From the NCBI RefSeq assembly GCF_007556705.1, contig NZ_VJOL01000005.1, forward strand, positions 1 to 64,000: 64,000 nt of DNA. Direction: 5' to 3'. The notes beneath the pieces are model-generated. The model saw nothing but the letters and a program-made list of their open reading frames with translations, ran no database searches and had not been told where the DNA came from. Made by a program: the position numbers and the translations under genes. Positions 13,904-19,108 of this stretch are shown here, in pieces. This DNA comes from Tepidimonas thermarum (GTDB lineage: Bacteria; Pseudomonadota; Gammaproteobacteria; Burkholderiales; Burkholderiaceae_C). Position 1 is the stretch's first letter, and each line of letters begins with the position of its first letter.

Positions 13904-13950
13904 CGATCGCCCCGTGACAGCAGACCTCCGGGGCTGGGAAGGAGTGATCG

Positions 13951-15708
13951 GTGAATTTACCTGCATTGGCTGCACCGCCGCTGGCGCCCAAGGGGCGGGC
14001 GACGCCCAAGGGACGGGTGCCCTCGGACGCCGCCCGTCAGGCCGTGGCCCATTGGTGCGAGGGGCTCGAACCCCGTCGCGATCTGCTCATCGAGCACCTG
14101 CACCGGCTGCAGGACGGGGTGGGCGGCTTGTCGCGCGACCATCTGGCAGCGCTGGCCGAACGCCTGCGTCTGAGCCAGGCCGAGGTGTACGAGGTCGCCA
14201 CGTTCTACCACCACTTTCGCGTGCTCGACGATGGCCAGGCGCCGCCGCGGGTGACGGTGCGCGTGTGCACCAGCCTGCCATGCGCGCTGGCGGGCGGCGA
14301 TGCGTTGCTGGCGCGGCTGCGCACCGCGCTGGCTGGGGATGCGCAGGTGGCGGTGCAAGCCGCCCCGTGCCAGGGTCAGTGCCACCGGGCGCCTGCGGTT
14401 TGCGTCGGGCAGCGACAACTTGCCCCCGCGTCGAGCGAGGCGGTCCAGGCATGTGTGCGGGCGGGCGACACCGCGCCGCGCCCCGTGCCGGCCAGCGCCG
14501 CCCCGGCGCGCGCCCAGGACTACGCGCAGCTCGAACGCCTGCTCAGCGGTGCGCCGCGCCCCATCGACGTGCTGCGCGAGCTCGAAGCCAGTGGCCTGCG
14601 CGGCCTGGGCGGCGCGGGTTTTCCGGCGTGGCGCAAATGGGCGACGGTGGCGGGGCAGCCCGGCCCCCGCCATGGCGTGGTCAACATCGACGAGGGCGAA
14701 GTCGGCACCTTCAAGGATTGGCACCTGCTCGCGCACGACCCGCGCCCGGCGCTGGAGGGCATGCTGATCGCGGCCGCAGTGGTCGGTCTGGAGCGTGTGT
14801 GGCTGTACGTGCGCGACGAGTACCACGACGTGCGCGTGCTGCTGGCGCGTGAGCTGGAGGACCTGCGCGCGCGCCTGGCCGCGTGGCAGCAGCGCTACCC
14901 GGCCGCCTTTGGCGATGTGACCGCGCGTACGTCAGGCGGCGGCCCCTTGCTGCCGCCGGGCGGCCCGGTCATCGAGCTGCGGCGTGGCGCGGGCGCCTAC
15001 ATCTGCGGCGAGGAGTCGGCCCTGATCGAGTCGCTGGAGGGGCGGCGCGGCATGCCCCGCCTGCGGCCCCCGATCACCGCCGTGCGTGGGGTGTTCGGCC
15101 GCCCCACGCTGGCGCACAACGTGGAGACGCTGTGGTGGCTGCCCACCCTGTTGCGCGACGGCGGGGCGGCCTGGGCCGCGGCGGGCGTGCGCGGCCGCAG
15201 CGGCTGGCGGCACTACAGCGTCAGCGGCCGCGTGCGCCAGCCCGGGTGTTACCGGTTGCCGGCGGGCAGCACCCTCAACGAGTTGATCGCCGCCGCCGGC
15301 GGCATGGCCGACGGGCATCGGCTCTATGCCTATTTGCCTGGGGGTGCCTCAGGGGGTATCCTGCCCGCGGCGCTGGCCGATGTGCCGCTGGACTTCGACA
15401 CCCTGGCCGATTACGGCGCGTTTGTCGGCTCGATGGCGGTGGTCGTGCTCTCCGAGGCCGACCGTGCGCGGGACGCCGCACTGTCGCTGATGCGCTTCTT
15501 CGAACACGAGTCCTGCGGGCAGTGCACCCCCTGCCGGGCGGGCACGACGCAGGCGGTGGCGTTGTTGCAGGCCCCGGTGTGGGACCGCGCGCGTTTGGAC
15601 GACCTTTCGCACACCCTGCGCGACGCCTCCATCTGCGGCCTGGGGCAGGCCGCGCCCAACCCGGTCGACAGCGTGCTGCGCTTCTTTCCCCACGAGGTGA
15701 CGCCATGA
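13951..15708 (+). CDS. NAD-dependent formate dehydrogenase, fused gamma-beta subunit (NuoE-NuoF type)
   Basis: Diaphorase subunit passing electrons from formate to NAD. 585 aa, a fusion of two subunits that are separate in FdsGBA enzymes. Residues ~1-165 are NuoE/FdsG-like with a 2Fe-2S Cys set (VCTSLPC ~104-110, APCQGQC ~137-143). The rest is NuoF/FdsB-like: GLGGAGFP (~218), NIDEGEVGTFKDW (~245, FMN/NADH site), AGAYICGEESALIESLEG (~346) and the 4Fe-4S Cys set ESCGQCTPC with a later ICGLG. Start GTG 13951, with GGAAGGAG upstream. The stop overlaps the next start (ATGA). Size and fusion match the beta subunit of the two-subunit Methylobacterium FDH1. Confidence 0.9.
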   Translation: MNLPALAAPPLAPKGRATPKGRVPSDAARQAVAHWCEGLEPRRDLLIEHLHRLQDGVGGLSRDHLAALAERLRLSQAEVYEVATFYHHFRVLDDGQAPPRVTVRVCTSLPCALAGGDALLARLRTALAGDAQVAVQAAPCQGQCHRAPAVCVGQRQLAPASSEAVQACVRAGDTAPRPVPASAAPARAQDYAQLERLLSGAPRPIDVLRELEASGLRGLGGAGFPAWRKWATVAGQPGPRHGVVNIDEGEVGTFKDWHLLAHDPRPALEGMLIAAAVVGLERVWLYVRDEYHDVRVLLARELEDLRARLAAWQQRYPAAFGDVTARTSGGGPLLPPGGPVIELRRGAGAYICGEESALIESLEGRRGMPRLRPPITAVRGVFGRPTLAHNVETLWWLPTLLRDGGAAWAAAGVRGRSGWRHYSVSGRVRQPGCYRLPAGSTLNELIAAAGGMADGHRLYAYLPGGASGGILPAALADVPLDFDTLADYGAFVGSMAVVVLSEADRARDAALSLMRFFEHESCGQCTPCRAGTTQAVALLQAPVWDRARLDDLSHTLRDASICGLGQAAPNPVDSVLRFFPHEVTP

Positions 15709-18572
15709 CCGCACCCGCTGCCGTGCCGACCCAGGAGGTATCGTTCACGCTCGACGGGCGGGTGGTGAGCGCCCATGCCGGCGAGACGATTTGGGACGTG
15801 GCGCGCCGCCTGGGCATCGAACTGCCCCACCTGTGCCACCGGCCCGGGCTGCCGCCGGCGGGCAATTGCCGCGCGTGTGTGGTGGAAGTGGCGGGCGAGC
15901 GCACCCTGGCGGCCGCCTGCTGCCGCGCGCCCCAGCCCGGCATGCAGGTGCGCACCGACAGCGCGCGCGCGCAGCGTGCGCGGCGCACGGTGCTGGAGCT
16001 GCTGGCCGCCGACGCCCCCGACAGCGCCGCCCTGCGCGCCGACAGCGAGCTGACGCGCTGGACCCAGGTGGTGGGGGCACGGCCGGGGCGCTGGCAGGCG
16101 CGCGGCGCCGCGCAGGCAGCGGCCGTGCCCGATGCCAGCCACCCCGCCTTCACCGTACGGCTGGACGCCTGCATCCAGTGCACACGCTGCGTGCGCGCCT
16201 GCCGCGACGTGCAGGGCAACGACGTGCTGGGCCTGGCCGGCCGGGGCGCGCACGCACGCATCGTGTTCGATCAGGGCGATCGCGTGGCCGACAGCACCTG
16301 CGTGGCCTGCGGCGAGTGCGTGCAGGCCTGCCCAACCGGGGCGCTGGCCCCCGCCAACGGTGCCTACACGCGCCGCGCCGACCGCGTGGTGCGCTCGGTG
16401 TGCCCGTTTTGTGGCGTGGGCTGCGCGGTGGACCTGCACGTGCGCGACGGCCGTCTGGACCGCGTCGAGGGTGCGCCGGGGCCCGCCAACGCGGGTCGCC
16501 TGTGTGTCAAAGGGCGCTTCGGCATGGACTATGTCCACCATCCGCAGCGCCTGACCACGCCGCTGATCCGCCGCCCCGATGCGCCCAAGGACCCGGCGCT
16601 GCTCACGCGCGGGCCGGGTGGGCGGCCCGATCCGCACGCGCTGCGCGCGCAGTTTCGCCCCGCCAGTTGGGACGAGGCGCTCGATGTGGCCGCCGCCGGT
16701 CTGGCGCGCGTGCGCGATGCGGCGCGCTCGCTCGGATTGCGCGGACGCGCGGTCCCGGTGGCGGGCTTTGGCTCGGCCAAGGGCAGCAACGAGGAAGCGT
16801 ACCTGTTCCAAAAGCTCATCCGCAGCGCCTTTGGCACCCACAACGTGGACCACTGCACGCGCCTGTGCCACGCCTCCAGCGTGGCGGCGCTGATGGAGGG
16901 CATCGGCTCTGGCGCCGTCAGCAACCCGGTGCGCGATTGCGCGCACGCCGACCTCATCGTCGTGATGGGTGCCAACCCGGTGCAAAACCACCCGGTGGCG
17001 GCCACCTGGATCAAAAACGCGGTGCGCCGTGGCGCGCGCCTGGTGCTGATCGACCCCCGGCGCACCGAGCTGTCGCGCCACGCGTGGCGCACGCTGACCT
17101 TTACCCCGGGCAGCGACGTCGCGCTGCTCAACGCCATGCTGCACGTGATCGTGACCGAAGGGCTGGTCAACGAGGCGTTCGTTGCCGCGCGCGTGCACGC
17201 TGGCGACGTGCAGGCGCTGCGCGCGCACCTGCAGGCCTTTGCGCCCGAGGCCATGGCGCCCCTGTGTGGCATCGACGCCGCGACCATCCGCGAGGTGGCG
17301 CGCGCCTACGCCACGTCGCCGGCGGCCATGATCTTTTGGGGCATGGGCGTGGCCCAGCACAGCCACGGCACCGACAACGTGCGCGCCCTGATCGCGCTGG
17401 CGTTGCTGACGGGCCACATCGGCCGCCCGGGCACCGGGCTGCACCCGTTGCGGGGGCAAAACAACGTGCAGGGTGCCAGCGACGCAGGGTTGATCCCGAT
17501 GGTGCTGCCGGACTATCGCCGCGTGGCAGACCCGGCCGCGCGCGCCGCTGCCGAGGCCGCGTGGGGGCTGCCCAACGGCTTTTTGCCCGACGAGCCGGGG
17601 CTGACCGTGGTGGAAATCCTGGACGCGGCGTACGACGGGCGCATCCGCGCGATGCTGATCCAGGGCGAAAACCCGGCCATGAGCGACCCCGACGCGCACC
17701 ACGCGCGCGCCGCGCTGGCGCGGCTCGAGCATCTGGTGGTGGCCGACATCTTCCTGACCGAGACCGCCGCGCTGGCCGACGTGGTCCTGCCGGCCACCGC
17801 CTGGCCCGAGAAAACCGGCAGCGTCACCAACACCGACCGCACGGTGCAGCTGGGCCGCCCAGCCCTGGCCCCGCCTGGCGACGCCCGTGCCGATGCCTGG
17901 ATCTTGGAGCAGCTGGCGCGCCGCCTGGGGCTGGACTGGGACTACGGCATCGACCCCCACGGTGGTGGGGGCGCGCCCGACAACGGCATCGGCCGCGTAT
18001 TCGACGAAATGCGCAGCCTCATGCCGGCGCTGGCAGGACTGTCGTGGGAGCGGCTGCTGCGCGTGGGCGCGATCACCCACCCGGTGCCCACCGCCGACGA
18101 CCCCGGCCACCCCATCGTCTTCACCGACCGCTTTCCCACCCCGGATGGCCGTGCCCGGTTGGTGCCGGCGTGCCTGGGGGCGCCGGCCGAGCCGCCGGAT
18201 GCGCACTACCCCTTTGTGCTCATCACCGGCCGCCAGCTCGAGCATTGGCACACCGGCGCCATGACGCGGCGCAGCGCGGTGCTGGATGCGCTGGAGCCCA
18301 CGCCCCACGTCAGCCTGCACCCGGCCACGCTGGCGCGCTTGGGGCTTGCGCCAGGTGCGCCGGTGCGCTTGCGCAGCCGGCGCGGCGAGGTGAGCGTGGC
18401 CACACGCGTGGACGAGGCGGTGCCGCCGGATGTGGCCTTTTTGCCGTTTGCTTATGTGGAGGCCGCGGCCAACGTGCTGACCATCGCGGCGCTCGATCCG
18501 GTGGCCAAGATTGCCGAGGTCAAGTACTGCGCGGTCGCCATCGAGCCCGTGACCAGCCCGGCCCTGGCTTGA
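15705..18572 (+). CDS. Formate dehydrogenase catalytic alpha subunit (Mo/W-bisMGD, Cys type)
   Basis: Oxidises formate to CO2 at a bis-MGD cofactor. 955 aa, cytoplasmic. Domains in order: NuoG-like 2Fe-2S ferredoxin (CHRPGLPPAGNCRAC, ~44-60), two 4Fe-4S clusters (CIQCTRCVRAC ~154 and CVACGECVQAC ~199), then the molybdopterin oxidoreductase starting with its own cluster (VCPFCGVGC ~231 and GRLCVKGRF). The active-site ligand is Cys388 followed by His389 in CTRLCHASS, in place of the selenocysteine of FdhF. The C-terminal dinucleotide-binding domain has GRQLEHWHTGAMTRR. ATG 15705 overlaps the previous stop. No fdsC/fdhD or fdsD gene follows. Confidence 0.93.
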   Translation: MTAPAAVPTQEVSFTLDGRVVSAHAGETIWDVARRLGIELPHLCHRPGLPPAGNCRACVVEVAGERTLAAACCRAPQPGMQVRTDSARAQRARRTVLELLAADAPDSAALRADSELTRWTQVVGARPGRWQARGAAQAAAVPDASHPAFTVRLDACIQCTRCVRACRDVQGNDVLGLAGRGAHARIVFDQGDRVADSTCVACGECVQACPTGALAPANGAYTRRADRVVRSVCPFCGVGCAVDLHVRDGRLDRVEGAPGPANAGRLCVKGRFGMDYVHHPQRLTTPLIRRPDAPKDPALLTRGPGGRPDPHALRAQFRPASWDEALDVAAAGLARVRDAARSLGLRGRAVPVAGFGSAKGSNEEAYLFQKLIRSAFGTHNVDHCTRLCHASSVAALMEGIGSGAVSNPVRDCAHADLIVVMGANPVQNHPVAATWIKNAVRRGARLVLIDPRRTELSRHAWRTLTFTPGSDVALLNAMLHVIVTEGLVNEAFVAARVHAGDVQALRAHLQAFAPEAMAPLCGIDAATIREVARAYATSPAAMIFWGMGVAQHSHGTDNVRALIALALLTGHIGRPGTGLHPLRGQNNVQGASDAGLIPMVLPDYRRVADPAARAAAEAAWGLPNGFLPDEPGLTVVEILDAAYDGRIRAMLIQGENPAMSDPDAHHARAALARLEHLVVADIFLTETAALADVVLPATAWPEKTGSVTNTDRTVQLGRPALAPPGDARADAWILEQLARRLGLDWDYGIDPHGGGGAPDNGIGRVFDEMRSLMPALAGLSWERLLRVGAITHPVPTADDPGHPIVFTDRFPTPDGRARLVPACLGAPAEPPDAHYPFVLITGRQLEHWHTGAMTRRSAVLDALEPTPHVSLHPATLARLGLAPGAPVRLRSRRGEVSVATRVDEAVPPDVAFLPFAYVEAAANVLTIAALDPVAKIAEVKYCAVAIEPVTSPALA

Positions 18573-18664: not shown

Positions 18665-19108
18665 ATGTTCCAGAAAATCCTCGTTCCCGTCGACGGCTCG
18701 CAGCTCTCCCACGCCGCCGGCGTGTTCGCCGCCGACCTGGCCAAGCAGCACGGCGCCCAGATCGTGGGCGTGTACGTGATCGACCCGTTCCCGTATATTG
18801 GCATCGGCGACGCCTCGGCCGTGGGGCTGCAGGCCTATCTGGCCGAGGCGCAGGCCGCGGCGGGCAAGGCGTTGGACGACCTGCGCCAGGTCTGCGTCGA
18901 GCGCGGCGTGCCGTTTTCCGGGGACACCATCGAGCGCAACGTCACCTACGAGGGAATTCTGGAAACCGCCGACGCCGAAGGCTGCGACCTCATTGTCATG
19001 GGCTCGCACGGCCGCAAGGGCGTGCAGGCCTTGATCCTGGGCAGCGTGGCGCAAAAGGTGCTCACCCACGCCAAGGTGCCGGTGCTCATCGTCAAGCCCC
19101 AGGCCTGA
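18665..19108 (+). CDS. Universal stress protein (UspA family)
   Basis: 147 aa single Usp domain. It opens with FQKILVPVDGS and has the ATP-binding motif G-2x-G-9x-G-(S/T) in GSHGRKGVQALILGSVAQKVL, so it is the nucleotide-binding type. It follows the formate dehydrogenase after 92 bases. A TAAGAT at ~18627 could be its own -10. In many bacteria such proteins respond to anaerobiosis or starvation; here that is inference. Confidence 0.9.
   Translation: MFQKILVPVDGSQLSHAAGVFAADLAKQHGAQIVGVYVIDPFPYIGIGDASAVGLQAYLAEAQAAAGKALDDLRQVCVERGVPFSGDTIERNVTYEGILETADAEGCDLIVMGSHGRKGVQALILGSVAQKVLTHAKVPVLIVKPQA

Follow-up and report, generated by a model that had tools for sequence, protein, structure and literature searches.

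Which type of formate dehydrogenase is encoded by the two genes at positions 13,951 to 18,572 of this Tepidimonas thermarum DNA, which metal does it hold, and to which acceptor does it pass its electrons? The window, that is the whole stretch of 64,000 nucleotides analysed herein, carries both as real genes on the plus strand. The first, fdh1B (13951..15708), starts with GTG, 6 nt after a Shine-Dalgarno-like GGGAAGGAG (13936..13944, plus strand) read from the sequence, and encodes a diaphorase subunit of 585 aa. Using Pfam, we identified in this single chain a NuoE-like thioredoxin-fold [2Fe-2S] domain (residues 38-169; 14062..14457; PF01257, 2Fe-2S_thioredx), a NuoF FMN/NADH domain (residues 212-395; 14584..15135; PF01512, Complex1_51K), an SLBB domain (residues 423-470) and the NuoF C-terminal [4Fe-4S] domain (residues 508-583; 15472..15699; PF10589, NADH_4Fe-4S), in agreement with the fused gamma-beta protein described in an earlier sequence-only reading of the locus. 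The second, fdh1A (15705..18572), encodes an alpha subunit of 955 aa with a [2Fe-2S] domain (residues 10-86; 15732..15962; PF13510), a proximal [4Fe-4S] domain (residues 227-279; 16383..16541; PF04879) and a molybdopterin dinucleotide binding domain (18213..18533), all on the plus strand, and scores 685.2 bits against the NCBI model TIGR01591 (Fdh-alpha; cut-off, 666.25). The mechanical open reading frame of alpha opens at 14883, inside the beta gene, but its start is likely the ATG at 15705, which overlaps the beta stop by 4 bases (ATGA).

Upstream of the pair lie MCC-alpha-like, GhrA-like, HMG-CoA lyase-like, YbaK-like and DUF1289 genes, the last directly preceding the beta gene, and a universal stress protein (Usp) gene (18665-19108) directly follows the alpha gene. 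Inspection of these flanking genes detected neither fdsC nor fdsD adjoining the pair, as the sequence-only reading had stated. The Cys388-His389 site of alpha (16866..16871, plus strand), named there as the active ligand, was confirmed by position: Cys388, the predicted metal ligand, aligns with Cys436 of FDH1 from Methylorubrum extorquens AM1 (MeFDH1), a residue named as tungsten ligand in the part of PMC10869683 at hand.

The likeness to Methylobacterium FDH1 proposed in the same reading was examined by comparison with solved structures and by phylogeny. Alpha matched MeFDH1 with 1134 bits and two FdsA chains with 564 and 554 bits; beta matched the MeFDH1 beta with 574 bits and FdsB with 231 and 224 bits. 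In a tree of 45 alphas (the window's and 44 relatives, L175 being omitted as it gave no alpha), built by a quick search with warnings for one long row (L109) and for unusual composition in five rows including the window's, FdsA (8 rows) and FDH1 (37 rows) were split with an SH-aLRT of 100, and the window's alpha stood outside FdsA, among FDH1. MeFDH1 was represented in this tree through its Methylobacterium orthologues; as an anchor, the alpha of Methylobacterium radiotolerans, which falls in the FDH1 part, matched MeFDH1 with 2102 bits. Alpha carries the cysteines for one [2Fe-2S] and three [4Fe-4S] clusters besides the Cys metal ligand, and three extra cysteines of one FdsA stretch are absent from it and from the other FDH1 alphas printed, which agrees with MeFDH1 having one [4Fe-4S] cluster fewer than FdsA, as given in the available part of PMC13397495. 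When the AlphaFold model of beta (mean pLDDT, 84.3; pTM, 0.86) was searched with Foldseek, the first four matches were all MeFDH1 entries. The assignment of the pair as an FDH1-type formate dehydrogenase, predicted from sequence, is thus supported by the structure match, the tree, the fused beta and the cluster ligands.

The assembly of this genome (2.7 Mb, 129 contigs, estimated completeness 99.99%) gave no match to the profile model of FdsD, and neither did the control genomes, while the model matched 89 of 399 genomes sampled from the family. Its four other molybdopterin-enzyme matches include an FDH3-type enzyme, NarG and a NasA-like nitrate reductase, and none is FdsA-like. The narG of this genome is split over two frames (L103, 31-2430, covering NarG positions 286-1024, and 2571-2918, with the dinucleotide-binding domain), a frameshift or an assembly fault. 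The outcome named in the sequence-only reading as refuting it did not arise, since alpha is not among FdsA and FdsD was not found. Membership in FdsGBACD was rejected on the basis of the tree, the missing FdsA-only cysteines, the absence of unfused FdsG and FdsB and the failure to find FdsD; that the pair is a rearranged FdsGBACD, with fdsG and fdsB fused and fdsC/fdsD relocated, is hardly credible, because the location of an FdhD-family gene on another contig speaks for it but the position of alpha outside FdsA, an FdsA score about half of that to MeFDH1, and the same missing cysteines, FdsD and second FdsA-like enzyme all speak against it.

The sequence-only reading had taken FdsGBACD as the rule among betaproteobacterial enzymes, a view that does not hold for this family. 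An FDH1-type beta was detected in 197 of the 399 genomes at E <= 1e-90, a threshold at which the NuoF of Tepidimonas (only about 1e-78 to 1e-73) is left out, the 30 best matches being checked as sequences and the remainder counted by score. FdsD was detected over its curated cut-off in 86 (of the 89 matching at E <= 0.001). The fused two-gene layout is therefore not unusual for the group. Both were found together in 16 genomes, and FDH1 and FdsD tend toward mutual exclusion in the sampled family. By a scan of genome contigs, at least 591 relatives were confirmed.

For identification of the metal, we searched the genome for transporters and cofactor genes, as the sequence-only reading had suggested. 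A TupA-like protein is indeed encoded, but ModA is as well, making molybdate uptake also likely; the part of the proposed check that did not come through is the rest of a tungstate transporter, since tupB and tupC were not located beside this TupA (L098). The neighbouring genes are unlike TupBC, the adjoining ABC ATPase scoring 191.8 bits with LolD versus 124.2 bits with ModC. Two MoeA are encoded, one with the canonical M-K-P-G-K and P-V-S motifs, the other with M-R-P-G-R and P-V-A. The latter carries both residues, Arg291 and Ala312, that favour tungstate in the M. extorquens tungstate insertase MoeA1 according to the available text of PMC13197769. The R-P-G-R-type motif was found in 131 of 189 FDH1 genomes versus 33 of 197 others, being associated with FDH1 but not exclusive to it. 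The search for fdhD, likewise proposed, yielded a single FdhD-family gene, located on another contig beside the FDH3-type operon; from this location, its shared use with FDH1 appears likely, and fdhD is essential for MeFDH1 (PMC13197769, same part). Near the FDH1 genes of Methylobacterium radiotolerans, a MoeA-PBP_like fusion is encoded (L106, 8528-10516), alongside glp, mobB and ABC transporter genes.

In order to examine the link with tungsten in the family, the 399 genomes were screened with the TupA model (NCBIfam NF041772, E <= 1e-30). A TupA-like protein was detected in 223 genomes, none reaching the curated cut-off of 400 bits, the protein of this genome itself scoring 229 bits; the model matched only 2 of the 14 control genomes, which speaks against a mix-up with PstS, a related phosphate-binding protein. 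TupA-like proteins are present in 185 of the 197 genomes with FDH1 versus 38 of the 202 without (Fisher p 3e-58), and twelve FDH1 genomes gave no TupA match; of genomes with FdsD and no FDH1, 6 of 70 carry it. As kinship inflates this table, the comparison was repeated within genera for the 386 of 399 genomes with genus codes. Within the 31 genera mixed for FDH1, TupA was commoner with FDH1 in 16, rarer in 2 and tied in 13 (p 0.0013), whereas the same test for FdsD gave 2 higher, 15 lower and 14 tied. No earlier published report of this family-wide link was found in the literature covered. As FDH1 is common in the sampled genomes and travels with a TupA-like protein, tungsten may well be in ordinary use across the family. 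Other tungsten enzymes may also draw on TupA, for example aldehyde oxidoreductases, one of which is annotated in a betaproteobacterium (PMC5023235, in the part available). One Tepidimonas genome (G001) shows no FDH1 beta, yet TupA still matches there, though more weakly (E 1.5e-44).

These observations bear on whether the enzyme, although of FDH1 type, is loaded with molybdenum in this host. ModA and the canonical MoeA are compatible with such loading, and so are three genomes (G041, G318 and G372, with loci L156, L148 and L149) that carry FDH1 with the nearest, Thiomonas-like sister type of beta but give no TupA match, perhaps a return to molybdenum. On the other hand, TupA and the R-P-G-R/P-V-A MoeA are encoded in the same genome as the pair, TupA is present in 17 of the 17 survey genomes in which a beta with Trp at position 227, as in the window, was seen (five Tepidimonas among them), and molybdenum in MeFDH1 was below detection in the portion of PMC13197769 at hand. 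We therefore consider molybdenum loading unlikely, and tungsten is predicted as the most likely metal at the Cys388 site.

The diaphorase end of the enzyme raises the question of the acceptor. Among the NADH-site residues of the MeFDH1 beta, given as F232, K237, E334 and K351 in the available part of PMC10869683, the window's beta keeps F, K and E and has Arg for Lys351; Arg is also the consensus residue there in an alignment of 27 FDH1 betas. The subclade to which it belongs differs from 70 other FDH1 betas at five key positions of the FMN/NADH region (G227W, P251V, R257W/G, F/Y375I and A495M), which in the window, on the plus strand, are Trp227 (14629..14631; Gly in 66/70), Val251 (14701..14703; Pro in 70/70), Trp257 (14719..14721; Arg in 66/70), Ile375 (15073..15075; Tyr or Phe in 70/70) and Met495 (15433..15435; Ala in 68/70). 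The 70 rows were those left after omission of the short, missing or distant L020, L021, L026, L028, L030, L041, L047, L050, L066, L077, L109 and L110. Of 272 beta columns conserved in at least 85% of these rows, 22 carry a different residue in every one of the 6 full-length clade members, versus 13 of 457 conserved alpha columns in 8 clade members (Fisher p 0.002, the clades being unequal in size, 6 vs 8). Clustering of the 22 sites is weakly supported: the permutation p value is 0.0088 for a window of 31 conserved columns, a width picked after the fact, but 0.13 for one of 20 and 0.05 for one of 40.

In a beta tree computed after removal of eleven of the replaced columns, a single branch sets apart the rows with Val/Ile251 (29 rows), and another branch within this group sets apart those with Trp227 (22 rows), so that G227W and P251V have one origin each and were then kept, except for one Ile at 251. 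The nesting suggests that Pro to Val, Arg to Gly/Trp and Ala to Met came first and Gly to Trp later; intermediate states at the key positions were observed in Thiomonas-like betas and three further loci. In 11 Tepidimonas genomes the FDH1-type betas found numbered eight, including two fragments (identity, 74-100%), and all eight are of the Trp type, whereas the NuoF proteins seen in Tepidimonas genomes, and a more distant fused protein therein (L131; 42%), are canonical. No earlier published report of this one-origin pocket signature was found in the literature covered. The Trp motif alone is not diagnostic, since its DNA pattern also matches a NuoF-like protein of another kind (L160-L168), which occurs in two further families of the order: of 11 genomes matched by the pattern, 2 carried FDH1 betas and 9 this other protein. 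The latter has a GFP(A/T)WRKW motif; in the three printed, R-Y-I-G-G-E-E replaces G-A-Y-x-C-G-E-E, and the best solved matches of the one searched were NfnB/StnB-like chains.

A Usp gene lies 3' of the alpha gene in four subclade loci, the window, L017 (9916-10395), L018 (9831-10379) and L022 (9845-10339); the reading frames tested for Usp in L019 and L023 gave no Pfam match. Upstream of the FDH1 genes and in divergent reading, L022 (4106-5185) and L023 (4042-5154) encode a LysR-type regulator with a PBP_like domain (PF12727), possibly a metal- or formate-responsive regulator.

The pocket changes could mean that the FMN/dinucleotide pocket of the Tepidimonas-Hydrogenophaga subclade was rebuilt stepwise for an acceptor other than plain NAD+ or for an altered NAD(P) preference, a proposal which we regard as rather improbable. 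If true, it would give Burkholderiales tungsten enzymes with a new diaphorase end. In its strict form, in which the site no longer works with NAD+ as usual and prefers NADP+ or a protein partner, it is equally doubtful. In its favour are the excess of replaced columns in beta over alpha, the single origin and retention of G227W and P251V, the canonical NuoF of Tepidimonas, and the location of three key positions next to residues that bind NADH in Aquifex NuoF, those at 251 and 257 adjoining the counterparts of its E95, E97 and D103, which contact NADH according to the accessible part of PMC6560083. Loss of NAD+ use is, however, weakened as an explanation by NAD-using homologues: StnB (8oh5_B) and NfnB (9bov_B), both solved with NAD, have Trp at the position of G227; FdsB, which uses NAD, has Ser and Leu at those of 251 and 375; the MeFDH1 beta itself has Gln at 257; and the Lys351-to-Arg change is common, the other NADH-site residues being kept. 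The clustering is also weak. Among the alignments compared, A495M is the only key change without parallel in an NAD-using enzyme. Because four of the five key positions also vary in NAD-using homologues, NAD+ is predicted to be the likeliest electron acceptor.

Taken together, we hold it probable, with good confidence, that the pair forms a cytoplasmic heterodimeric FDH1-type formate dehydrogenase with most likely a tungsten site, which reduces NAD+ and obtains its cofactor through TupA, the MoeA1-like copy and FdhD. Formate would be oxidised to CO2 (the presumed direction) in alpha at the bis-MGD metal site with Cys388 as ligand and tungsten as the most likely metal. By analogy with MeFDH1, the electrons would pass from the proximal [4Fe-4S] cluster through two further [4Fe-4S] clusters to the [2Fe-2S] cluster of alpha, and from there enter the fused NuoE-NuoF subunit with its [4Fe-4S] cluster and FMN, where they would reduce NAD+. 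Tungstate for the cofactor is probably taken up through TupA and inserted by the MoeA1-like copy, and the cofactor is probably finished by the single FdhD, acting in trans.

FDH1-type enzymes are sought for the conversion of CO2 to formate, and the structurally solved enzyme is alphaproteobacterial; herein the type proves to be common among the sampled members of a single large betaproteobacterial family, alongside a likely tungstate-binding protein. Tepidimonas is a thermophilic genus, and its FDH1 may be a heat-stable version. With the pocket changes of the subclade, the determinants of nucleotide use in NuoF-type sites could readily be tested. A literature search, in which some results were only partly covered, found neither a pairing of Tepidimonas with an FDH1-type enzyme nor a link between TupA and FDH1 in Burkholderiales.

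Among known systems, MeFDH1 (PDB 7vw6, 7e5z, 7xqw and 8j83) likewise consists of two subunits with a fused NuoE-NuoF beta, and has the same Cys ligand and cluster ligands. The window's alpha (955 aa) is 58% identical to the Methylobacterium radiotolerans orthologue, and the MeFDH1 alpha (989 aa) is longer at its N-terminus; unlike MeFDH1, the window's beta has Trp227, Val251, Trp257, Ile375 and Met495, and it is extended in the region of residues 303-338. The FdsABGD enzymes of Rhodobacter capsulatus and Cupriavidus necator likewise oxidise formate at a Cys-coordinated bis-MGD metal and have a NuoEF/NuoG-like electron transfer to NAD+, but in the parts of the sources available they differ by having gamma and beta as separate subunits, FdsC and FdsD as partners, one more [4Fe-4S] cluster in alpha, and molybdenum. 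In the betaproteobacterium Methyloversatilis universalis FAM5 (Rhodocyclaceae), a two-gene NAD-dependent "tungsten-containing formate dehydrogenase" is annotated beside a separate FdhGBACD in the available part of PMC5023235, and is likened to the window's enzyme by the name and gene count given in a table. Nearest are the FDH1-type enzymes of Tepidimonas ignava, Tepidicella, Malikia and Hydrogenophaga, which form the subclade with the window's, have full-length betas with Trp227 and are otherwise of the same type, their alphas showing 66-86% identity, with Tepidimonas ignava (86%), Tepidicella xavieri (73%) and Malikia spinosa (73%) as the closest among the matches listed.
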